A stretch of DNA of 64,000 nt, from assembly GCF_041435355.1 (NCBI RefSeq), contig NZ_CP108442.1, forward strand, positions 6,756,501 to 6,820,500, given 5' to 3'. This document shows positions 5,083 to 64,000 of this stretch, piece after piece. The position numbers and the translations under genes were made by a program. The notes under the pieces were generated by a model. That model had not been told where the DNA came from. It did not search any database and saw only the letters and a program-made list of their open reading frames with translations. Source of the stretch: Streptomyces sp. NBC_01276. Lineage in GTDB: Bacteria > Actinomycetota > Actinomycetes > Streptomycetales > Streptomycetaceae. Position 1 is the stretch's first letter, and the number at the start of each line of letters is the position of its first letter.

Positions 5083-5997
5083 ATGAACCGCATCGAGATC
5101 CGCGAACTCACCAAGGACCACGGCAGCCGACGGGTCGTGGACCACCTGACCTTCGACGTCCTGCCCGGCAGGGTCACCGGCTTCCTGGGGCCCAACGGCG
5201 CCGGCAAGTCCACCACCCTGCGGCTGTTGTTGGGCCTGGACCGGCCGACCTCCGGCTCCGCCACCATCGGCGGGAGCCGGTTCACCGACCTCGACCGCCC
5301 CCTGCACCGGGTGGGAGCCCTCCTCGACCCCCAGGCGGCCCACTCGGGCCGCCGGGCCCGCGACCACCTCCTCGCGCTCGCCGTCAGCAACGGCATCCCA
5401 CCCGCCCGCGTCGACAGGGTCCTGGAGCAGGCCGGTATCGCTTCCGTCGCCCGCCGCCGCATCGGAACCTTCTCACTGGGCATGCGCCAGCGCCTGGGCA
5501 TAGCCGCCGCCCTGCTGGGCGACCCCGGAGTGCTGCTGCTGGACGAGCCGACCAACGGCCTCGACCCGGAGGGCATCATCTGGATCCGCGAGCTGATGCG
5601 CGGCCTCGCAGCCGAAGGGCGCACCGTCTTCGTCTCCAGCCATCTGATGGCCGAGTCGGCGGCGTTCGTCGACCACCTCGTGGTGCTGGGGCGGGGCAGG
5701 GTCCTCGCCGACACCTCGATGGAGGAGTTCATCAGCGCCCGCAGCACCCGGAGGGTGCGGTTGCGAACCTCGGAGCCGGAGCGGTTGGGGGCGGCCCTGG
5801 CCCGGGACGGCTTCGCGCTGGTCGCCGCCGAGGAGGGGTCCTGGACCGTCGACGGCATACGGGCCGACCGGATCGGCGCCCTCGCCGCCCGTGCGGGCAT
5901 CCCCGTCCTGGAGCTGGCCGACGAGCGGGCCTCCCTGGAGCAGGCCTATCTCGATCTCACCGCCGACCGTGCGCAGTTCTCCGCCACCACCACCTGA
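5083..5997 (+). CDS. ABC transporter ATP-binding protein (bacitracin/lantibiotic-export type)
   Basis: A 304-residue ATPase with Walker A GPNGAGKST (about residues 38-46), signature FSLGMRQRLGIA, Walker B VLLLDEPTNGLDPEG and the switch His in VSSHLMAES. A C-terminal extension of about 90 residues is typical of ATPases paired with ABC-2 permeases for drug or peptide export. The permease follows immediately. A NarL-type sensor/regulator pair is transcribed divergently, the usual arrangement of transporter-plus-two-component detoxification modules. The substrate cannot be deduced. Confidence 0.92.
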   Translation: MNRIEIRELTKDHGSRRVVDHLTFDVLPGRVTGFLGPNGAGKSTTLRLLLGLDRPTSGSATIGGSRFTDLDRPLHRVGALLDPQAAHSGRRARDHLLALAVSNGIPPARVDRVLEQAGIASVARRRIGTFSLGMRQRLGIAAALLGDPGVLLLDEPTNGLDPEGIIWIRELMRGLAAEGRTVFVSSHLMAESAAFVDHLVVLGRGRVLADTSMEEFISARSTRRVRLRTSEPERLGAALARDGFALVAAEEGSWTVDGIRADRIGALAARAGIPVLELADERASLEQAYLDLTADRAQFSATTT

Positions 5998-6018
5998 ATC
6001 CCGATGGGAGCCACCGTC

Positions 6019-6771
6019 ATGACCTCTGCAGCCCTGCCCACCGTCTCCGTCCTGCACTCGGAGTGGATCAAGATACGTTCCATCCGTTCGACCCTCGGAT
6101 CGCTCCTGGCCGTCTTCGCGGCCACCGCCGGCATCACCGTCCTCACCGCCGCCGCCATCGGCACCTCGGAACCGGGAGCACTGGGGGAGGACCGCCTGTT
6201 CGGAGCTTTCTTCGGCATCAACTTCGGGCAGATAGCGGCCGTCGCCTTCGGCGCCACGGCCTTCGCCGGTGAATTCCGCGACGGAGCGCTGCGGGTGTCG
6301 CTCACCGCCGTGCCCAACCGGACCCGGCTGTACCTGTCGAAGGCCGCCACGGTGGCCGGACTCGCCTTCGTGGTCGGTCAGATCACCGGCCTCGTCACCT
6401 TCGTCGCCGGCCAGGCCCTGATGGGGGAGTACGCCCTCTCCCTGGGGGACCCGGGCACTTTGCGGGCCGTGTTCGGCAGCGGTGCCTACCTCACGCTGAT
6501 CGCCCTGCTGTCGGCCGGTCTGACGGCCCTGGTGCGCAGTGGCACGCTGGTGATGAGCCTGCTCATACCCTTCCTGCTGATCGTGCCCTTCGTGGTCGGT
6601 CAGGTCGCCGACGGTGCGGGACAGTTCATGCCCGACCGGGCCGGCCAGGTGGTGATGCGGCTGGAGGCGCAGGGGACGCTCGGTCCGTGGAGCGGGCTGG
6701 CGGTGACGGCGATGTGGGCCCTCGTGTCCCTGGCGGCGGGGTGGCTGGCCGTGCGGCGGCGCGACGCGTGA
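6019..6771 (+). CDS. ABC-2 type permease subunit
   Basis: A 250-residue integral membrane protein that begins LHSEWIKIRSIRST, the amphipathic entry helix of ABC-2 permeases. Six hydrophobic segments follow (about 30-52, 70-90, 115-140, 160-182, 188-208, 225-245). The ATG at 6019 is preferred over the in-frame ATG at 6004 because a GGGAG Shine-Dalgarno sits at 6006-6010, 8 nt upstream. It is the second gene of the exporter operon, starting 21 nt after the ATPase stop. With the ATPase it should form a homodimeric-permease exporter. Confidence 0.9.
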   Translation: MTSAALPTVSVLHSEWIKIRSIRSTLGSLLAVFAATAGITVLTAAAIGTSEPGALGEDRLFGAFFGINFGQIAAVAFGATAFAGEFRDGALRVSLTAVPNRTRLYLSKAATVAGLAFVVGQITGLVTFVAGQALMGEYALSLGDPGTLRAVFGSGAYLTLIALLSAGLTALVRSGTLVMSLLIPFLLIVPFVVGQVADGAGQFMPDRAGQVVMRLEAQGTLGPWSGLAVTAMWALVSLAAGWLAVRRRDA

Positions 6772-6782
6772 CGCCGGACCAA

Positions 6783-6805
6783 TTGTCAGTGGCCCCCGGA
6801 ATACT
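6783..6805 (+). promoter_or_regulatory. RecA-NDp / PafBC-type DNA-damage promoter, leaderless
   Basis: TTGTCAGTGGC at 6783-6793 is an exact match to the -35-side element of the RecA-independent DNA-damage (RecA-NDp, PafBC) promoters of actinobacteria. It is followed by 6 nt and AATACT (6800-6805) in the -10 position. The ATG of the next gene is at 6812, so the transcript would begin at or next to the start codon. GTCAGT and ACTGAC at its ends also form a small inverted repeat. Confidence 0.65.
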
Positions 6806-6811
6806 GACGGT

Positions 6812-7249
6812 ATGACCACGGCACAGCACCTCGACCTGATCGATCGGCTGCGGGCCCAGAGCTTCGTGGACGTGCCGGTGCGCCTCGGTCGGCACAGCAG
6901 CGGCCCCGGCTACCACCTCGTCCGTCTGGAGGAGACCGGGGACTTCTGGGAGGACGACGGTTCGGGACGCCGGGAGGCCGCCGACCAGATCAGCGCCGAG
7001 TACGCGGCCCTCACCCAGGCCCTGACGGAGCGCTGGGGGACGCCTCTGGTCTTCACGCTGTGCTCGCCGGCCGCCCTGGACACCGCGCCGGAGGAGCTCG
7101 CTCAACCCTGGGAGGAACTGACGCACAGCACCGACCACGTGCACCTCTGGCGGGCGGAGGACCGTTGGCTGGTGGCCTGTGTGACGCAGTGGAGTGAGGA
7201 GGACCCCTACACGCTGATGGCGGGGATCACCGTGACGGACCCGCCGTAG
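6812..7249 (+). CDS. Conserved hypothetical protein under DNA-damage-type promoter
   Basis: A 145-residue soluble, acidic protein that I cannot assign to a named family. It has no signal peptide or membrane segment. The middle is helical (EAADQISAEYAALTQALTERWG) and the C-terminal half is Trp/His-rich (STDHVHLWRAEDRWLVACVTQWSEEDPYTLMAGI), giving the look of a small alpha/beta domain. The ATG at 6812 has no Shine-Dalgarno and falls at the predicted transcription start of the RecA-NDp-type promoter, so it is probably leaderless. This is the only functional clue: the protein may be made during DNA damage. The next gene follows after 51 nt with its own promoter. Confidence 0.75.
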   Translation: MTTAQHLDLIDRLRAQSFVDVPVRLGRHSSGPGYHLVRLEETGDFWEDDGSGRREAADQISAEYAALTQALTERWGTPLVFTLCSPAALDTAPEELAQPWEELTHSTDHVHLWRAEDRWLVACVTQWSEEDPYTLMAGITVTDPP

Positions 7250-7263
7250 GACCGCGAAATCCG

Positions 7264-7294
7264 TTGTCGCCCGCCGGAGCGGTGGCCCTACTGT
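7264..7294 (+). promoter_or_regulatory. Candidate promoter for the kinase at 7301, leaderless
   Basis: TTGTCG (7264-7269) and TACTGT (7289-7294) are 19 nt apart and place the transcription start at about the GTG codon at 7301. No Shine-Dalgarno is visible before that GTG. Confidence 0.4.
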
Positions 7295-7300
7295 GGCGCG

Positions 7301-7834
7301 GTGCAGACTCAAGTGATCGTTCTCAATGGCGGATCCAGCTCCGGCAAGTCGGGGATCGCCCGGTGCCTGCAGGCCGTCCTGCCGGATCCGTGGCTGGTCT
7401 TCGGGACGGACACCCTGGTCGACGCGATGCCGGCGTCGATGCGGGCGATGGACGGGGGCATCGAGTTCGCTCCGGACGGCGAGGTCGTCGTCGGTCCCGC
7501 GTTCCGGGCACTGGAGGCGGCCTGGATCGAGGGGATCGCCGCGATGGCGCGGGGCGGGGCCCGGATCGTCGTCGACGAGGTGTTCCTCGGCGGGGCGGCC
7601 TCCCAGAAGCGCTGGCAGCAGGCCCTGGGCGGGCTGCGGGTGCTGTGGGTGGGTGTCAGGTGTGAGGGCGCCGTGGCCGCGGGCCGGGAGATCGCGCGGG
7701 GCGACCGGACCGTGGGGATGGCCGTCTCACAGGCGGAGCTCGTCCACCGAGGCGTGGTCTACGACCTGGAGATCGACACCACCCACGCCGAGTCGATGGA
7801 GTGCGCACGGGCCATCGCGGGCCGCGCCGGGTGA
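7301..7834 (+). CDS. Chloramphenicol 3-O-phosphotransferase-like (CPT) kinase
   Basis: A 177-residue P-loop kinase closely resembling the CPT of chloramphenicol producer S. venezuelae. Walker A is GGSSSGKSG (about residues 10-18), then the active-site Asp in [12 protein letters not shown], then [21 protein letters not shown], the Arg-rich lid REIARGDR and the end [16 protein letters not shown] phosphorylates the primary hydroxyl of chloramphenicol. No chloramphenicol biosynthesis genes are near, so this copy is either a resistance gene or a family member with another small-molecule substrate. The GTG start at 7301 has no Shine-Dalgarno and is probably leaderless. It is convergent with mug. 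Confidence 0.85.
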
Positions 7835-7893
7835 TCGACGGCAGGGCCGGCGCGCGTGGACGACCCCGAGGGGGCGGGGCGGTCCGGCGCACT

Positions 7894-7922
7894 CGGGCGA
7901 GGGGCACCCCGGAGCTCGCCCG
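7894..7922. terminator. Bidirectional stem-loop terminator between CPT-like gene and mug
   Basis: Arms CGGGCGAG (7894-7901) and CTCGCCCG (7915-7922) pair perfectly around a 13-nt loop that can itself pair GGGG with CCCC. It lies between two convergent genes. There is no T run, as is usual for Streptomyces hairpin terminators. Confidence 0.55.
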
Positions 7923-7929
7923 GCGCCGG

Positions 7930-8478
7930 TCAGGGGGTGGGCGGGGCCTCCGCCGCCTCGCGGAGGCGGGCGTACTCCTGGGCCATGGACTCCGCGGTCC
8001 AGTGGGCGTTGAGGCCGCTGGGGTTGGGCAGTGCCCAGATGTGGGTGGTGCCGATGGTCCGCTCCTGAGGGCCGATCCGGGCCCGGCGGTCGCCGAAGGC
8101 GGTGCGGTAGGCGGTGACGCCGACCACGGCGAGCCAGTCGGGCCGCAACCGCTCGACCTTCGCCGTCAGGATCCGGCCGCCCTCACGGAACTCCTCCGCG
8201 GTCAGCTCGTCGGCGCGGGCGGTCGCCCGGGCCACGACGTTCGTGATGCCGAGGCGGTAGGTGAGCAGTTCCTCCTGCTCCTCCGGTGCCAGCCTGCGGG
8301 GCGTGAAGCCGGACAGGTGGAGGACCGGCCAGAAACGGTTGCCCGGCCGGGCGAAGTGGTGGCCCGTCGCGGCGGACAGGAGCCCCGGGTTGATTCCGCA
8401 GAAGAGCACGCGCAGACCGCCCGCGACCACGTCCGGCAGGACGCGGTCGCGGGCGGCTTCGAGCTCGTCGGGGGTCAG
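7930..8478 (-). CDS. mug: G/U mismatch-specific DNA glycosylase (Mug)
   Basis: Uracil-DNA-glycosylase superfamily member that removes uracil or thymine from G:U/G:T mispairs. Motif 1 is GINPG (about residues 28-32), followed by the FARPGNRFW loop; motif 2 is LPNPSGLNAHW near the C-terminus. The clear GTG at 8430 would omit conserved sequence. Reading back to a CTG at 8476-8478 adds LTPDELEAARDRVLPD, which is the usual Mug N-terminus, and makes a 182-residue protein whose CTGA start overlaps the purB stop. No in-frame ATG, GTG or TTG lies between. The product is co-transcribed after purB. I am sure of the family and less sure of the CTG start. Confidence 0.88.
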   Translation of the reverse strand: MTPDELEAARDRVLPDVVAGGLRVLFCGINPGLLSAATGHHFARPGNRFWPVLHLSGFTPRRLAPEEQEELLTYRLGITNVVARATARADELTAEEFREGGRILTAKVERLRPDWLAVVGVTAYRTAFGDRRARIGPQERTIGTTHIWALPNPSGLNAHWTAESMAQEYARLREAAEAPPTP

Positions 8479-9908
8479 AGGATCGATCCCGGCGCGTACC
8501 CGGCGGCCTCCGGGTGCTGCTTGGCGATGGCCTCGATCCGGGAGACCACGGTCGCGACCTGGTCGCCCGCGGCGCCGGTGAACGACAGCTTGTCGGCCAT
8601 CAGGGCGTCCAGCTGCGCGCGGTCCAGCGGCATCCGCTCGTCGGCGGCCAGCTTGTCCAGCAGCTCGTTGCGCTCGGCACCCTGCTCGCGCATGGCGAGC
8701 GCGGAGGCCACCGCGTGCTCCTTGATGACCTCGTGGGCGGCCTCACGGCCCACACCGGCCCGCACCGCGCCCATCAGCACCTTGGTGGTGGCGAGGAAGG
8801 GCAGGTAGCGGTCCAGCTCGCGGGCCACGACGGCCGGGAAGGCGCCGAACTCGTCGAGGACGGTCAGGAAGGTCTCCAGCAGGCCGTCGAAGGCGAAGAA
8901 CGCGTCGGGCAGGGCCACGCGGCGGACCACGGAGCAGGAGACGTCGCCCTCGTTCCACTGGTCGCCGGCCAGCTCGCCGGTCATCGAGGCGTAGCCGCGC
9001 AGGATGACCATCAGGCCGTTCACACGCTCGCAGGAGCGGGTGTTCATCTTGTGCGGCATCGCGGAGGAGCCGACCTGGCCGGGCTTGAAGCCCTCGGTGA
9101 CCAGCTCGTGGCCCGCCATCAGGCGGATGGTCTTCGCGATCGAGGACGGGGCGGCGGCCAGCTGCACCAGAGCGGTGACCACGTCGTAGTCCAGCGAGCG
9201 CGGGTAGACCTGGCCGACGGAGGTGAAGGCCTGGGAGAAGCCGAGGTGGGCGGCGATGCGCTGCTCCAGGTCGGCCAGCTTGGCGGCGTCGCCGCCCAGC
9301 AGGTCGAGCATGTCCTGGGCGGTGCCGACCGGGCCCTTGATCCCGCGCAGCGGGTAGCGGTCGAGGAGGTTCTCCAGGCGGTCGTAGGCGACCAGGAGCT
9401 CGTCGGCGGCGGTCGCGAAACGCTTGCCCAGGGTCGTCGCCTGCGCGGCGACGTTGTGGGAGCGGCCGGCCATGACCAGCTCGGCGTGCTCGCCGGCCAG
9501 CTTGCCGAGGCGGGCCAGGACGGCGACCGTGCGGTCCCGGGCCAGCTCCAGCGAGAGCCGGATCTGCAGCTGCTCGACGTTCTCGGTCAGGTCGCGGGAG
9601 GTCATGCCCTTGTGCACGTGCTCGTGGCCGGCGAGGGCGTTGAACTCCTCGATCCGGGCCTTCACGTCGTGCCGGGTGACCTTCTCGCGCTCGGCGATGG
9701 AGGCGAGGTCGACGGTCTCCAGGACGCGCTCGTAGTCGGCGAGGGCGGCGTCCGGGACGTCGATGCCGAGGTCCTTCTGGGCGCGCAGCACGGCGAGCCA
9801 CAGCCGCCGCTCCAGCGTCACCTTGTACTCGGGGGACCACAGGACGGCGAGCTCCGCGGAGGCGTAGCGGCCGGCCAGGACATTGGGGATGCGGGGCTTG
9901 GCTGTCAC
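8475..9908 (-). CDS. purB: Adenylosuccinate lyase
   Basis: A 477-residue enzyme of the fumarase/aspartase superfamily. It cleaves adenylosuccinate to AMP plus fumarate and SAICAR to AICAR plus fumarate in purine synthesis. The superfamily signature SSAMPHKMN sits in the middle of the protein with the flexible catalytic Ser; the catalytic His is in GRSHNVAAQATTLG, and GHEHVHKGMTSRDLTEN is the N-terminal substrate-binding region. The GTG at 9908 is the first start in frame (MTAKPRIPNVLAGRYAS). Length is usual for actinobacterial PurB. It overlaps the mug start by 4 nt. Confidence 0.97.
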   Translation of the reverse strand: MTAKPRIPNVLAGRYASAELAVLWSPEYKVTLERRLWLAVLRAQKDLGIDVPDAALADYERVLETVDLASIAEREKVTRHDVKARIEEFNALAGHEHVHKGMTSRDLTENVEQLQIRLSLELARDRTVAVLARLGKLAGEHAELVMAGRSHNVAAQATTLGKRFATAADELLVAYDRLENLLDRYPLRGIKGPVGTAQDMLDLLGGDAAKLADLEQRIAAHLGFSQAFTSVGQVYPRSLDYDVVTALVQLAAAPSSIAKTIRLMAGHELVTEGFKPGQVGSSAMPHKMNTRSCERVNGLMVILRGYASMTGELAGDQWNEGDVSCSVVRRVALPDAFFAFDGLLETFLTVLDEFGAFPAVVARELDRYLPFLATTKVLMGAVRAGVGREAAHEVIKEHAVASALAMREQGAERNELLDKLAADERMPLDRAQLDALMADKLSFTGAAGDQVATVVSRIEAIAKQHPEAAGYAPGSIL

Positions 9909-9979
9909 GTGTAGGGATTCTACTTGGGCCGCGGCTGTGCGTTCACGCAGGTGGGGGCGCCACCTGCGATTGTGTGTTG

Positions 9980-10762
9980 CTACGAGGGCGGCGAGGCCGC
10001 GTACGGCAGCAGTTCGGGCCTCTTGGAGGGGCGGCCGTCACCCGAGGAGCGGCCCGTCAGGCGGCGGCCGATCCAGGGGAGCAGGTGCTGCCGGGCGAAG
10101 CGCAGGTCCTCGGTCCTGCGCACCTGCCAGCCGGGGGCCGCGGCGGGCGGCAGGGCGGCCCGCCAGTCCTCCTGCGCGGGCAGGCCCAGGCTCTGCCAGA
10201 CCGCCTCCGCCACCCGCCGGTGGCCCTCGGCGGTCAGGTGCAGCCGGTCGACGTCCCACATGCGCGGATCGGCGAGCACCGGGGCCCCGTACAGGTCCAC
10301 CAGCAGCGCCCCGTGTCGGGCGGTGAGCTCTTCGAGGATGCCGAACAGCTCCTCCATGCGGGGCCGGAAGCGTTCCATGACCGGACCGTTGCGGCCTGGG
10401 GAGCGCATCAGCACCAGCCGCCCGCAGGACGGGGCCAGCAGGGCCACGGCCTCTTCCAGGTGGCTGCGGACCCTGCCCATGTCGACCTTCGGCCGCAGGG
10501 CGTCGTTGAGCCCGCCCACCAGCGTCACCACGTCGGCGCCCATCGCGGCGGCGGCCGGCGCCTGGTCCTCGGCGATCTGCCCGATCAGCTTTCCGCGCAC
10601 CGCGAGGTTCGCGTAGCGGAAGCCCGGCTCGCGCGCCGCGAGCCGGGCGGCCAGCAGATCGGCCCAGCCCCGGTAGGAGCCGTCCGGCAGCAGGTCCGAC
10701 ATGCCCTCGGTGAAGGAGTCGCCGATCGCGACGAAACTGGTGTAAGGCGCATTCATCTCCAT
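9980..10762 (-). CDS. SGNH/GDSL-family hydrolase
   Basis: A 260-residue protein with SGNH esterase blocks: block I AIGDSFTEG with the nucleophilic Ser (about residue 16), block II Gly in YANLAVRGK, block III GGLNDALRP with Asn, and block V DVDRLHLTAEGH with the Asp-His pair. There is no signal peptide, so it is probably a cytosolic esterase or lipase/thioesterase of unknown substrate. The start could be the ATG at 10762 or the next ATG at 10756. It precedes purB by 71 nt on the same strand. Confidence 0.88.
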   Translation of the reverse strand: MEMNAPYTSFVAIGDSFTEGMSDLLPDGSYRGWADLLAARLAAREPGFRYANLAVRGKLIGQIAEDQAPAAAAMGADVVTLVGGLNDALRPKVDMGRVRSHLEEAVALLAPSCGRLVLMRSPGRNGPVMERFRPRMEELFGILEELTARHGALLVDLYGAPVLADPRMWDVDRLHLTAEGHRRVAEAVWQSLGLPAQEDWRAALPPAAAPGWQVRRTEDLRFARQHLLPWIGRRLTGRSSGDGRPSKRPELLPYAASPPS

Positions 10763-58656: not shown

Positions 58657-60072
58657 TCAGCAGGTGGCCGCTGACGGGTGGGCCAGGGCGTGGGCGGTGA
58701 GGGAGCGGGAGTAGCGGCGCAGCAGCAGGACGGCCGTGGTGGCGAGGCCGGTGAGCAGGCCGAGCCAGATGCCGAGGGTGTCCAGGTCCAGTGCGTACGC
58801 GAGGATCCACGACGCCGGCAGTCCTACGGCCCAGTAGCCGACGAGGGTGATGCGGAACCCGCTCCTGGTGTCGTCGAGGCCCCGCAGCAGCCCCACGCCG
58901 ATGTTCTGCGCACAGTCGAAGAACTGCAGGAACGCGGTGACGACGAGGAGCTGCGCGGCGATGGCCGGAGCCTGGCCGGTACCGGAACCGGAGTCCAGGA
59001 AGGGCGCCAGGACCAGCCGGGGAACCGTCAGGTAGACCAGTCCGACGACGGCCATGACGGCGGCGGCGCAGGCCAGCGCCGTGTTCTTGATGCGCCGGGC
59101 GTCGTCGTGGTGGCCGAGGGCGAGCTCGCGGCTGACGGTGAGGGAAGCCGCGTGGGAGAGCCCGACGGCGACCTGGAAGACGATGTAGACGAGCTGGTTG
59201 ACGGCGGTGTGCGCGGCCAGGGCGTCGGGTCCGAAGGAGCCGGCCATGAGCGCGGTGAGCGAGAAGAACCCGGCCTCGGAGCCGTAGGTGGCGGCGATGG
59301 GGACGCCGAGGCCGACCAGCTGCCTGACGGTGGCCGGGTCGGCCTTGGTGAGGTCCAGGGTCAGGAGCGGTGCCAGCCGCTCGTCCCGCTTCGCCGAGAC
59401 GAGGAGGGCGAGGAAGGACAGCAGGTACACGGTCGAGGTGGCGACGCCGATACCGGTGAGGCCGAGCCCGGGCAGGCCGAACGTACCGTGGATCAGGACC
59501 CAGTCGAGGCCCGCGTTGACCGCGACCGAGGCGATGGTGATCCGCAGCAGGGCCTGCGGGCGGCGCATGCCGACGGTGAACTGGCGTACGGCCTGGAACC
59601 ACAGGCAGGGCAGCAGCCCGGGGGCGAGGGCGAGGAGCATCGCCCGGGCGGGACCGACGACGTCCGCGTCCTGGCCCAGCGGGCCGAGGGCCCGGCCGAT
59701 GAGGACCATGAGGACGGCGCCGATGACGCCGGCGAGCGTGGCGACGGCCAGGCTCGCCCGGACGATGCCCCGCACCTCGTCGTCCGCGGGCTTTCCCCCC
59801 GCGACGTCGTCGCCCCCTCCGGCCGCCCGTTCGGCCCGCGCGGCCGCGGCGGCTATTCGGTTGCCGACGGAGGTGACGAGGCCGACGCCCATGGTGCGCA
59901 GCTGGTTGAAGATGACGATGGCCAGACCGCCGGCCGCGAGCTCCCGGGTGCCCAGGAGCCCCATCATCACGGTGTCGGTCGTGGTCAGTGCGACCTGGGC
60001 GAGCTGGGTGAGGATCAGGGGCACGGCGAGGGTGCCGAGGGCGCGGCCGTCGCGGAGGAGAGTGGTGGGCAT
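58657..60072 (-). CDS. MATE-family efflux transporter
   Basis: A 471-residue multidrug/small-molecule exporter with about twelve helices in two similar halves. N-terminal LILTQLAQVALTTTDTVMMG is the MATE helix-1 signature with the conserved Asp and Thr; the second-half equivalent includes SHAASLTVSRELALG. It starts 3 nt after the sbnA-like gene, so it is the last gene of that operon and probably exports its product. The ATG at 60072 is supported by this spacing. Confidence 0.93.
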   Translation of the reverse strand: MPTTLLRDGRALGTLAVPLILTQLAQVALTTTDTVMMGLLGTRELAAGGLAIVIFNQLRTMGVGLVTSVGNRIAAAAARAERAAGGGDDVAGGKPADDEVRGIVRASLAVATLAGVIGAVLMVLIGRALGPLGQDADVVGPARAMLLALAPGLLPCLWFQAVRQFTVGMRRPQALLRITIASVAVNAGLDWVLIHGTFGLPGLGLTGIGVATSTVYLLSFLALLVSAKRDERLAPLLTLDLTKADPATVRQLVGLGVPIAATYGSEAGFFSLTALMAGSFGPDALAAHTAVNQLVYIVFQVAVGLSHAASLTVSRELALGHHDDARRIKNTALACAAAVMAVVGLVYLTVPRLVLAPFLDSGSGTGQAPAIAAQLLVVTAFLQFFDCAQNIGVGLLRGLDDTRSGFRITLVGYWAVGLPASWILAYALDLDTLGIWLGLLTGLATTAVLLLRRYSRSLTAHALAHPSAATC

Positions 60073-60075
60073 GGT

Positions 60076-61104
60076 CTACCGGTTCCCGCGGAGTTTGGTG
60101 AGCAGTTCTTCGATCTCCCGTTCGACCTCGGGGTCGAGGAGGCCGCGGGCCCGCATCCAGTCGTCGTCGAAGACGGTGTCCATGTACTTCTCGCCGCCGT
60201 CGTTGACGAGGGCGACCACGGTCGTGCCCGGGGGCAGGGAGGGCAGCCGGGTGAGGGCCTCGTGGACGACGCCTCCGGCGGAGCCGCCGATGAGGAGCCC
60301 GGTACGGGCGACGGCGCGGCAGGTCGCGAAGGCCTCGACGTCGCCGACCTTGACCCCCTCGTCGATGAGGTCGAAGTCGACGAGGGCGCCTATCCCGGCT
60401 CCCTCGGGGGTGCCGGTACCGGACTGGTGGTAGTCGTGGGCCGGGCCGCCGAAGGCGATGGAGCCCTTGGGTTCGACGCCGATGACGGTGAAGCCGGACA
60501 TCAGCCTCCCCAGCTCCCGGCCCGTGCCGCAGAGGGCGCCGCCGGTGCCGACCGCGCCGATGAGCACGTCGATCCGGCCGCCGAGGGCCTCGTGCAGTTC
60601 GTGGGCCACGGCGAAGTAACCGACGCCGTTGGCGGGGTTGTTGTGCTGCTCGGTGAAGACCGTGTCGTCCCGCCCGCGGGCCATGTCCTCGGCGAGTTCC
60701 TCGCGGGCCGCGGTGGCGAGTTCCCCGCTGCCGTCGTCCACGACGTAGACGAGCTCGGTGCCCAGCGCCTTCATGCCCCGCAGTTTGTCGGGGCAGGCGT
60801 GGTGGTCGACGACGGCGGTGAAGGCGTAGCCGCGTTCCGCGGCGATGACCGCCAGACCCAGGCCGGTGTTGCCCGAGGTCGATTCGACGATCCGGCCGCC
60901 CGGCCGGAGTTCGCCCGCCGCCTCGGCGGCGTCGACCATGGCGCGGGCCATGCGGATCTTGGCCGTGCCGGTCGGGTTGAACATCTCCAGCTTCAACAGC
61001 AGACGGCTGCCGGTGGCGGTCCGGGCCAGTTCCAGCAGGGGGGTGTACCCGACGAGTTCGGATACGCGGGATACCAGGGCGGGGCGCTCAAGGGCTCCGG
61101 GCAT
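60076..61104 (-). CDS. SbnA-like N-(2-amino-2-carboxyethyl)-L-glutamate synthase
   Basis: A 342-residue PLP enzyme of the cysteine-synthase fold. The PLP Lys is in MFNPTGTAKIRMARAM (about residue 49, with TAK in place of the SVKDR of cysteine synthases, as in SbnA); phosphate-binding STSGNTGLG and GTGGALCGTG, and the C-terminal GGSAGGVVHEAL. SbnA condenses O-phospho-L-serine with L-glutamate to ACEGA, the first step to 2,3-diaminopropionate. Presence with an SbnB homologue supports this activity. It follows the decarboxylase gene by 30 nt. Confidence 0.88.
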   Translation of the reverse strand: MPGALERPALVSRVSELVGYTPLLELARTATGSRLLLKLEMFNPTGTAKIRMARAMVDAAEAAGELRPGGRIVESTSGNTGLGLAVIAAERGYAFTAVVDHHACPDKLRGMKALGTELVYVVDDGSGELATAAREELAEDMARGRDDTVFTEQHNNPANGVGYFAVAHELHEALGGRIDVLIGAVGTGGALCGTGRELGRLMSGFTVIGVEPKGSIAFGGPAHDYHQSGTGTPEGAGIGALVDFDLIDEGVKVGDVEAFATCRAVARTGLLIGGSAGGVVHEALTRLPSLPPGTTVVALVNDGGEKYMDTVFDDDWMRARGLLDPEVEREIEELLTKLRGNR

Positions 61105-61134
61105 CGGGGACTCCAGAGGGTCGGGGCGGGGACG

Positions 61135-62607
61135 TCAGGTGAAGTGGCGGTCCAGGCGCCAGCGCGGGCGCGCCCGGCCGGTCCGGTCGACGACGACCTT
61201 CGGGGGGAGGGCCAGGTCGTGGAAGGAGGACTCGTTGGAGTCCATCTGGTAGCCGGCCGTGTTGGGGTAGACGAGGAGGTCACCGGTGCGGGGGAGGGCC
61301 GGGAAGGGGATCTTGCGCCAGGTGAGCAGGTCCGACTCCAGGCAGGTGGCCGCACCGACGCTCGCCGGGAACGTCCCCCGCTCGGCCCCGGGGTCCCGGG
61401 ACAGGAGGACGGGATCGGGCAGGTACTCGCTGTTGAACCACTGTTCGGACAGGCTCAGACTGGTGCCGTCCACGGTCAGGATCCGGTAGCCGGCGCGTTC
61501 CTTGACGCCCTGGACGCGGAAGACCGTGGCTCCGGCCTGGTGGAGCAGGGACCGTCCGGGTTCCAGGAGCAGCAGTACGCCGGAGTCGCGGAGGAGCCGG
61601 GACAGCGGATGCCCGTGGCTCTCGGGGCGGGTGGCCAGGAGCGCGGCCAGGGCCTCGGGGCCGGCGACGGGGGAGTGGTAGGGGTAGAAGTCGCCGGTGT
61701 GGAAGGTCCTTCCGGCGTGGTAGTGGCCGCTGTGCTGCCCCTGGAGGAAGCCCCGCCAGCTCTCGGCGTCGGTGTAACTGACGGGCAGACCGCCGCCGAT
61801 GCTGATCCGGCTCGCCTCCAGACCCCGTACCCGCGCCGTGAGGCACAGGCCGACCAGCCGGGCCGCGAGGTCGGCCCGGGGCTGGAGGGCGTAGCCGGAG
61901 AGGTGGAAGGCGAACCCCTCCATGCGCAGGGCGTCCCCGGCCCGCACGCACCGGTCCAGTGCCGTGGCCAGTTCCGGCTCGGAGAGCCCGAAGCGGCTGT
62001 GGGGCCGGTCGGGCGGCAGGCAGCGCAGCAGGATCCGGGCCGGACGGATCCGCCCGGCGAGCCCCCCGCCGACGAGCGCGACGAGCGCGTCGAGTTCGTC
62101 CAGGGCGTCGACGGCGATCAGCGCTCCGTGCCGGACGGCCAGGTGCAGCAGAGCCGGATCCTTCGCGGGCCCGGTGACGACGAGGTGCTCGCCCCGTGTG
62201 CCGTGCCCCAGGGCCTCGCGCAGCTCGCCCACGGAGGCCACGTCCACGCCGGCCCCGCCGGCCGCGGCGCGTTCGACGAAGACGGCGGCCTTGTTGGCCT
62301 TCTTCGCGAAGTACACGAACCCCTCGACCCCGGCCGAGGCCAGGGCCTCCCGCATGCCCCGCAGGTTGGTGTCGAAGGCCTCGGGCAGCAGGAAGTGGAA
62401 CGGGCCGCCGAAGGCGTGGGCGAGTTCGGGCAGCAGTCCGCTCGCCAGTACCCGCTCGGTGGCTTCGTCGGGCAGGACCGGCACGGTGGGCAGGGCGGCA
62501 CGGGCCGCGGCGGGACCGGCGGCGGTGGCCGCGGTGGGACCGGTCCCCGGGGCGGAGCCGGTCCCCGCGGCCGAACCGCCCGGCGTCGTCGTGCCGTTCA
62601 CGCCCAC
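61135..62607 (-). CDS. Fold-type III PLP-dependent decarboxylase (LysA/SbnH-like)
   Basis: A 490-residue enzyme of the alanine-racemase-fold decarboxylases. PLP Lys in FVYFAKKANKAAVF (about residue 94), Gly-rich phosphate loop SISIGGGLPVSYTD, the Arg/Glu region LLLLEPGRSLLHQAG, Cys loop VGAATCLESDLL and C-terminal YPNTAGYQMDSNESSFH. The residues and context recall SbnH, which decarboxylates a citryl-diaminopropionate intermediate in staphyloferrin B. Diaminopimelate and carboxynorspermidine decarboxylases are related alternatives. A 45-residue Ala/Gly/Pro-rich N-terminus precedes the domain. GTG at 62607, overlapping the sbnB-like stop by 10 nt. Confidence 0.85.
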   Translation of the reverse strand: MGVNGTTTPGGSAAGTGSAPGTGPTAATAAGPAAARAALPTVPVLPDEATERVLASGLLPELAHAFGGPFHFLLPEAFDTNLRGMREALASAGVEGFVYFAKKANKAAVFVERAAAGGAGVDVASVGELREALGHGTRGEHLVVTGPAKDPALLHLAVRHGALIAVDALDELDALVALVGGGLAGRIRPARILLRCLPPDRPHSRFGLSEPELATALDRCVRAGDALRMEGFAFHLSGYALQPRADLAARLVGLCLTARVRGLEASRISIGGGLPVSYTDAESWRGFLQGQHSGHYHAGRTFHTGDFYPYHSPVAGPEALAALLATRPESHGHPLSRLLRDSGVLLLLEPGRSLLHQAGATVFRVQGVKERAGYRILTVDGTSLSLSEQWFNSEYLPDPVLLSRDPGAERGTFPASVGAATCLESDLLTWRKIPFPALPRTGDLLVYPNTAGYQMDSNESSFHDLALPPKVVVDRTGRARPRWRLDRHFT

Positions 62608-63665
62608 AGTGCGACCTCCGTGCCCAGGCCCTGGGCGAGGGCGAGCTGGGCGAAGCGGTGTCCGAGGGCGATGTCGGTGACGACGAGACCGCTGTTGTAG
62701 GCGAAGATCCGCTCGTCGGCGCCGGTCCGGCCCTTGCTCCGCCCGGCGAGAACGGCCGGGAACTCGCAGTCCACCGCCGGGAGTCCGCCATCGGCGTCGG
62801 CCATGTCCGTGCCGGTGACGTGCATCTGCGCCTCGCTCGTGGCGATCAGCCGGTCGGCCTCGTGCAGGGTGGACGGCGCCAGCCCGTGGCCGACGAGGAC
62901 CGCCAGCGCGCCGGCCCGCAGCCAGTCCGCCTCCACCGCGGCCGGGGTGTGGCCGCCCGCCGTGGCGACGATGACGTCGGCGTCGGCGGCGGCCGCCCGC
63001 AGGTCGGTGACCAGCTCCACGTCCCGGTCGGGGAAGTGGGCGCGCAGCCGTTCGCGGACGGCGGCGATGCCCGCGGGGTGCGTACCCGACAGCATCAGCC
63101 GGTCCAGGTCCGGGAGGGTGGTCAGCAGGAACGGCAGGGCCAGCCGGCCCTGGGTGCCGGTGCCGATGACCAGGGCGGTGCGGGCCGCCGGGGCGGCGAG
63201 TTCGCGGGCCAGCAGCGCCGAGACGGCGGGCGTGCGCAGGGAGCCGACGCGGGAGCAGTCCATCATCGCGACGGGCAGGCCGGTGACGTCGTCGTAGAGC
63301 GTCAGCGCGGTGTAGTAGTGCTGCTCCTCGCGGCCCCTGTCGAGGCCGTGCTTGTAGGACGTCTTGACGGCGACGACGTCGCGGGAGCCGTCGCGGCCGA
63401 GCATCGCGTAGGAGACGGAGTGCCCGTCGCGCGGTGTGACCGTGAGCTTGCGGGGGTTGTCGGACAGGCCGGCGTCGAGGGTGCGGTAGGCGCCCTCCAC
63501 CGTCTCCACCACGTCGGCCAGGGATATGTCGATCCCGGCGAGGTCGGTGGTGGACAGGACGCGCAGGTGCCGGTCGTCCGCCGGGGCCGGGGCCGGGGCC
63601 GGGGCGGGGGCGGGAGCGGCTGCGGCTGCGGAAGCGGAAGCGGTGCCGGCCGTGGTGTCGGTCAT
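62598..63665 (-). CDS. SbnB-like N-(2-amino-2-carboxyethyl)-L-glutamate dehydrogenase
   Basis: A 355-residue ornithine-cyclodeaminase/mu-crystallin family enzyme. NAD-binding ALVIGTGTQGRLALPFLL (about 166-183), substrate region KTSYKHGLDRGREEQHYYTAL and MMDCSRVGSLRTPAVSALLA, C-terminal FAYNSGLVVTDIALG. SbnB oxidatively cleaves ACEGA to L-2,3-diaminopropionate and 2-oxoglutarate. The first 30 residues are a low-complexity Ala-Pro tract (about 63577-63645), so the true start could lie further in. It overlaps the decarboxylase gene by 10 nt. Confidence 0.9.
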   Translation of the reverse strand: MTDTTAGTASASAAAAAPAPAPAPAPAPADDRHLRVLSTTDLAGIDISLADVVETVEGAYRTLDAGLSDNPRKLTVTPRDGHSVSYAMLGRDGSRDVVAVKTSYKHGLDRGREEQHYYTALTLYDDVTGLPVAMMDCSRVGSLRTPAVSALLARELAAPAARTALVIGTGTQGRLALPFLLTTLPDLDRLMLSGTHPAGIAAVRERLRAHFPDRDVELVTDLRAAAADADVIVATAGGHTPAAVEADWLRAGALAVLVGHGLAPSTLHEADRLIATSEAQMHVTGTDMADADGGLPAVDCEFPAVLAGRSKGRTGADERIFAYNSGLVVTDIALGHRFAQLALAQGLGTEVALWA

Positions 63666-63695
63666 GGGTCGGTCCTCCGGGTGCGGGGCGGGTGG

Positions 63696-64000
63696 TCAGC
63701 TCGCGTGCGCTTCGAGGGCGCTCTGGCCGTAGCCGTGCTCGCCGGCTTCGGCGTCGGGGCGGGTGCGGCGGCCGGGGACGCGTACCGAGGCGCGCTTGAG
63801 CCAGCGGTCGGTGCCGTCGTAGCGGGCCCGGAAGGGGACACGGCCGTGCACGACGAGGTCGTTGTCGACGACCAGGACCTCGCCGGGGCTCAGGCTGACG
63901 GCGATCGAGACCCGGGCCAGTTCGTCCGCGAGCCGGCCGTACGCGGACCGGTACGCCCCGTCGGCCTCCTCCAGCGGGGTGTACGCCGGGTCGAAGCGCA
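63696..64000 (-). CDS. Fe(II)/2-oxoglutarate oxygenase (TauD/clavaminate synthase-like), C-terminal part
   Basis: The last 100 residues of a gene that continues beyond the window. The end shows SLSPGEVLVVDNDLVVHGR followed by VPFRARYDGTDRWLKR: the distal metal-ligand His in HGR and the 2-oxoglutarate-binding Arg about eleven residues further, as in VioC/AsnO-type amino-acid beta-hydroxylases and clavaminate synthase. It precedes the sbnB-like gene by 30 nt on the same strand and is probably in its operon, where it could hydroxylate an amino-acid building block. Confidence 0.82.
   Translation of the reverse strand, partial: RFDPAYTPLEEADGAYRSAYGRLADELARVSIAVSLSPGEVLVVDNDLVVHGRVPFRARYDGTDRWLKRASVRVPGRRTRPDAEAGEHGYGQSALEAHAS

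Follow-up and report, generated by a model that had tools for sequence, protein, structure and literature searches.

A gene cluster for EDHA (ethylenediaminesuccinic acid hydroxyarginine) was reportedly described by Spohn et al. in 2018. A paper citing that work gives the EDHA cluster of Streptomyces scabiei as 11 kb long, extending from scab_5231 to scab_5311, and states that it was missed by antiSMASH in the work reported there (PMC8914351). In PMC10702961, Streptomyces sp. MA5143a is the EDHA reference, EDHA is an iron-responsive zwitterionic siderophore, and four genes are named, AesA to AesD, not nine. The family of MIBiG entry BGC0002567 comprises 1,450 windows in 24 genera, mostly Streptomyces, Nocardia and Corynebacterium, according to a preprint (PMC11888242).

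The DNA analyzed here (hereafter "the window") is a stretch of 64,000 nucleotides, positions 6756501-6820500 of contig C1, in a Streptomyces genome of 9.37 Mb and 5 contigs. Five minus-strand open reading frames occupy 58657-64000. Upstream of them, past the window edge in the same genome, lies a shared promoter region, followed by a divergent four-gene ABC importer of the peptide/nickel type (Dpp/Nik-like) on the plus strand. The features are listed below; percentages are identities to the S. scabiei 87.22 proteins.

58657..60072, minus strand: MATE-family exporter (Pfam MatE 1.9e-31; TIGR00797 176.2 bits, above the cut-off of 147.4; 71%), presumed to export the siderophore
60076..61104, minus strand: SbnA/cysteine-synthase-like PLP enzyme (Pfam PALP 1.2e-59; 76%)
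61135..62607, minus strand: LysA/SbnH-fold PLP decarboxylase (Pfam Orn_Arg_deC_N 8.8e-17; TIGR01048 101.4 bits, below the cut-off of 297.9; 62%)
62598..63665, minus strand: SbnB/ornithine-cyclodeaminase-like dehydrogenase (Pfam OCD_Mu_crystall 1e-28; 77%)
63696..64000, minus strand, continuing past the window: C-terminal part of a VioC/GntD-type Fe(II)/2-oxoglutarate oxygenase (TauD 1.7e-07 for the fragment; 67%)
65004-66560, plus strand: substrate-binding lipoprotein SBP_bac_5 (Pfam 8.7e-72; 74%)
66560-67564, plus strand: permease 1 (Pfam BPD_transp_1 8.5e-31)
67567-68433, plus strand: frame of permease 2, recognized through its conservation in relatives (the two permeases, 69% and 66%)
68433-69959, plus strand: double ABC ATPase (only 53%)

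The junctions between the five minus-strand genes, in transcription order, are a 30-nt gap (oxygenase/SbnB-like), a 10-nt overlap (SbnB-like/decarboxylase) that presupposes the GTG at 62607 as start codon of the decarboxylase, a second 30-nt gap and a 3-nt gap. Open reading frame spacing and Pfam families thus agree with the preliminary description of this DNA, which had placed the five tightly coupled genes in one operon, and its assignment of SbnA-, SbnB- and LysA-fold enzymes plus an oxygenase was confirmed by Pfam and NCBIfam.

All nine genes listed above were found by tblastn in identical order in S. scabiei 87.22 (NC_013929, 589747-600784, 11.0 kb), and nine genes, in the order seen in the present genome, were found in the same way in Streptomyces sp. 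MA5143a. Across these two reference loci the nine proteins are 53 to 78% identical to those described here. We equate the S. scabiei locus with scab_5231-5311 on the basis of its 11-kb length, its estimated position and the correspondence of nine genes to nine tags, which holds if the tags advance in steps of ten. The likeness to the EDHA cluster (S. scabiei 87-22, MA5143a, BGC0002567) encompasses the nine genes, their order and orientation, an extent of about 11 kb and an iron-box-like site in the promoter; the loci were not found to differ in gene content, and what separates them is ordinary sequence divergence. The conclusion that the operon is the biosynthesis and export half of an EDHA-type siderophore cluster, which the importer and the iron-box promoter would complete, is very probable from these sequence comparisons (we put it at roughly 0.93). 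Gene content, gene order, iron boxes and orthology come from this analysis, and the identification of the reference loci as EDHA loci comes from the papers cited above; that the divergent importer is a defining feature of the EDHA cluster is our reading of the 11-kb, nine-tag extent.

This match agrees with one suggestion of the preliminary description, that the operon serves a siderophore, and contradicts another, that no described Streptomyces cluster has this exact set of genes. The same description held that an already described cluster with the same gene set would speak against novelty, and such clusters were found in the EDHA loci of S. scabiei 87.22 and MA5143a, which match gene for gene.

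To survey related loci, a profile made from 14 oxygenases was compared with genome contigs; it identified 202 relatives, and the examination covered the best 80 of them. All five operon genes are present in 73 of these 80 named loci, and order and strand are identical in 73 of 73, indicating that the five-gene set is not a chance arrangement. The 7 remaining loci comprise six that are short or break off early (L063, L079, L086, L087, L103 and L109) and one true variant (L078). The divergent substrate-binding protein occurs in 78 of the best 80 of 202 loci, all four importer genes in 68 and all nine genes in 66, counts that include some partial matches (for example, the decarboxylase match in L059 covers 48%). 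The synthesis operon is present and the divergent importer absent in 2 of the best 80 of 202, L092 (S. buecherae AC541), which has a BTAD-type regulator as a neighbor and retains the iron box, and L114 (S. chattanoogensis). In an even draw of 121 genomes of the genus, the present one included, 16 carry the oxygenase at an identity of at least 56%, and the next matches are at 43%. The loci retrieved around those 16 oxygenases are short; the SbnB-like gene adjoins in 15 and the substrate-binding protein in 14, and one orthologue, that of G108 (56%), stands without either neighbor. The SbnB-like protein is less similar in L018, L108 and L111 (64, 66 and 66%) than in most relatives, a possible sign that the choice of oxo acid has changed there.

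Two iron-box-like palindromes lie between the divergent genes, beyond the window, at 64948-64966 (17/19) and 64856-64874 (15/19 to the consensus). The 19-mer consensus scored is, we assume, that of the DtxR/DmdR-type iron box. A strict 19-mer pattern matched a single site, once on each strand (2 matches), and had 0 matches in 200 shuffles; with a looser pattern there were 5 matches, distributed over 3 sites, against an expected mean of 0.47, and the third site, which falls within another gene, is taken as chance. The promoter region contains a match of at least 15/19 in 76 of the 80 named loci (best 80 of 202), compared to 0 of 80 control regions, which are coding DNA and hence unlike promoters in composition, and 0 of 400 mononucleotide shuffles. 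Those of the best 80 of 202 that fall below this threshold are L094, L098 and L108, each at 14, and the importerless L114, at 10, the promoter region of which has no iron box of at least 15/19. Both reference loci, S. scabiei 87.22 and MA5143a, have an iron-box-like site (15/19) in the divergent promoter. DmdR1 iron boxes mark siderophore loci in Streptomyces coelicolor, according to PMC12161575, and the predicted boxes lend sequence support to iron-responsive control of the operon.

The oxygenase gene, which the window edge cuts, has an open reading frame extending to a TTG at 64868, outside the window. The ATG at 64691 (Met60 of the long form) is a likely start codon, and a methionine occupies this place in most of the aligned homologues; the start may also lie upstream, because in five named loci (L036, L046, L051, L068 and L082) the match already begins with the first residue of the long form. 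The full-length protein scores 251.4 bits against NF041363 (cut-off 345) and 212.7 bits against the VioC equivalog TIGR03946 (cut-off 418.6), below both, and the TIGR03946 scores of the reference oxygenases are 224.4 bits for the S. scabiei copy and 213.4 bits for that of MA5143a. Its best solved relatives are L-arginine beta-hydroxylases, among them 4m23 (3.4e-51), which we take to be OrfP. The likeness to VioC/CmnC of viomycin and capreomycin biosynthesis, and to 4m23, consists of the oxygenase family and the catalytic residues; the differences are the score below the VioC cut-off and that no NRPS was found nearby. An arginine-beta-hydroxylase-like oxygenase fits EDHA, because the hydroxyarginine part needs one.

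Catalytic residues are in place in the SbnA-like enzyme, the decarboxylase and the oxygenase; the roles assigned to them are presumed from their families. Lys49 of the SbnA-like protein, within the motif TGTAKIR (residue 45), is aligned to the lysine of VKDR in cystathionine beta-synthase, and the decarboxylase motifs AKKAN (101), IGGG (270), EPGR (349) and CLESD (422) align with diaminopimelate decarboxylases. In the oxygenase, HTE 207-209, His341 and Arg355 do not vary among the 14 aligned sequences; the alignment represents 14 of 16 orthologous loci, the present one included, leaving out L007 (a stop in the span) and L021 (split), and is weakened by two rows, L018, which is partial, and L020, which has no surrounding cluster.

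The same genome encodes a second VioC-family oxygenase (C1:1869816-1870775) that is 34% identical to that of the operon, and about 36 kb from it, at C1:1906254-1906689, lies a sequence that matches the SbnA-like gene at the DNA level. The two may possibly belong to a second cluster with related enzymes.

The preliminary description had seen in this operon the edge of an undescribed diaminopropionate-based cluster, in which SbnA and SbnB make L-2,3-diaminopropionate (L-Dap), a Dap conjugate is the product, and the NIS synthetases or NRPS that assemble it must lie upstream. The set of SbnA-, SbnB- and SbnH-like folds speaks for this reading, and the staphyloferrin B sbn cluster (SbnA, SbnB, SbnH) does resemble the locus in these three enzyme folds and in iron scavenging. 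Among its solved relatives, the SbnB-like protein has 4m54 (1.4e-14), deposited as a putative ornithine cyclodeaminase and presumably SbnB itself. However, the NCBIfam scores led us to reject true SbnA and SbnB: the SbnA-like protein reaches 223.5 bits against TIGR03945 (cut-off 349.95) and the SbnB-like protein 95.2 bits against TIGR03944 (cut-off 326.9). The proteins of the S. scabiei and MA5143a EDHA clusters likewise miss the SbnA and SbnB cut-offs. Free L-Dap is therefore not the natural prediction, and a Dap conjugate is not supported as the product. As even reference proteins for EDHA, from two strains, score below these cut-offs, a check of this kind is called for before an SbnA/SbnB-like pair is assigned to L-Dap synthesis. 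The locus also differs from sbn in possessing the oxygenase. Extension past 64000, where the assembly enzymes had been expected, instead revealed the iron boxes and the importer: the operon stops at the divergent promoter, and no NIS synthetase (IucA/IucC), NRPS or ATP-grasp ligase family was found by Pfam and NCBIfam among the open reading frames scanned in the operon and beyond the edge. That scan covered part of the open reading frames in 32 kb, namely 8 of stretch L004 (the oxygenase included), the first permease and 8 of stretch L005 with Pfam, and 7 of L004 with NCBIfam; two of the 8 in L004 sit antisense to the permeases and have no family match. Given in addition that the gene set is already described, a diaminopropionate-based NIS or NRPS cluster is scarcely credible here.

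The importer's substrate-binding protein has a further match, of 72.3 bits, to the CntA opine-metallophore model, whose cut-off is 800. Past the ATPase are an aldehyde dehydrogenase, a TetR regulator and a peptidase-like protein, and then a [NiFe] hydrogenase locus (L005 800-13950, approximately 76800-89950 on the window scale) with large and small subunits, HypD and HypE-like and HypB-like proteins. This locus lies about 7 kb past the Nik-like importer, and near it is a second, ordinary decarboxylase of the ornithine/DAP type.

A cluster of the same kind might yield some other aminopolycarboxylate, with arginine or aspartate replaced by a different amino acid or oxo acid. The substrate choice of the PALP, OCD and decarboxylase enzymes is unreadable from sequence here, and none of the four enzymes reaches the cut-off of any NCBIfam model listed for it (of the 31 models for the SbnA-like protein, the best 25 were listed). 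Against this stand the identity of the four enzymes to those of the two EDHA reference loci, 61 to 78%, and the invariance of the oxygenase residues, so that a changed product is unlikely. The [S,S]-EDDS zincophore of Amycolatopsis japonica, product of an aes-type cluster, is related in its chemistry, an aminopolycarboxylate with ethylenediamine-bridged succinates. The EDDS aes cluster presumably has related SbnA/SbnB-like genes, and EDDS is not known to have a hydroxyarginine part. In the operon described here and in related loci, however, an arginine-hydroxylase-like oxygenase belongs to the gene set, and the promoter carries iron boxes, whereas EDDS is reported to be under Zur control (PMC6103462). 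On these two differences, hydroxylase and iron boxes, an EDDS-type cluster was rejected as very unlikely, the A. japonica cluster being compared by its description.

The EDHA-type assignment permits a tentative pathway. The name of the product holds succinate, ethylenediamine and hydroxyarginine, and a plausible task can therefore be proposed for each enzyme. The SbnA-like enzyme would use the nitrogen of an amino acid, aspartate being the simplest choice, to displace the phosphate or acetate of an activated serine (O-phosphoserine or O-acetylserine). The LysA-like enzyme would remove the serine-derived carboxyl, leaving an N-substituted ethylenediamine bridge, and the SbnB-like enzyme would, like an opine dehydrogenase, couple the free amine with a 2-oxo acid by reduction, or else perform an SbnB-type oxidative step. 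Beta-hydroxylation of the arginine part by the VioC-like oxygenase could take place before or after joining. The MATE protein would carry the chelator out and the ABC importer would bring the iron complex back in. We infer both the steps and their order; no EDHA enzymology was seen among the papers listed on aminopolycarboxylates and metallo-beta-lactamases and on EDDS genetics. Such a route needs no ATP-dependent synthetase, and this would account for the lack of one among the reading frames scanned. A broader proposal, in which the SbnB-like protein is the reductive joiner, the siderophore is made by four soluble enzymes without an ATP-dependent ligase, and relatives like that of S. torulosus form a sulfur-containing branch, is doubtful.

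The S. torulosus locus (L078, strain NRRL B-3889, 5850-10094) is EDHA-like, with a decarboxylase only 50% identical. A PALP-rhodanese fusion and a class V aminotransferase resembling SufS/cysteine desulfurase replace the SbnA-like and MATE genes, and a variant pathway with sulfur chemistry is possible there.

The cluster is thus already known, real but ordinary, and present in a good number of Streptomyces. The presumed border of a new cluster proves to belong to an iron-scavenging system that has already been described, which closes the question, and the rearranged S. torulosus relative may deserve attention.
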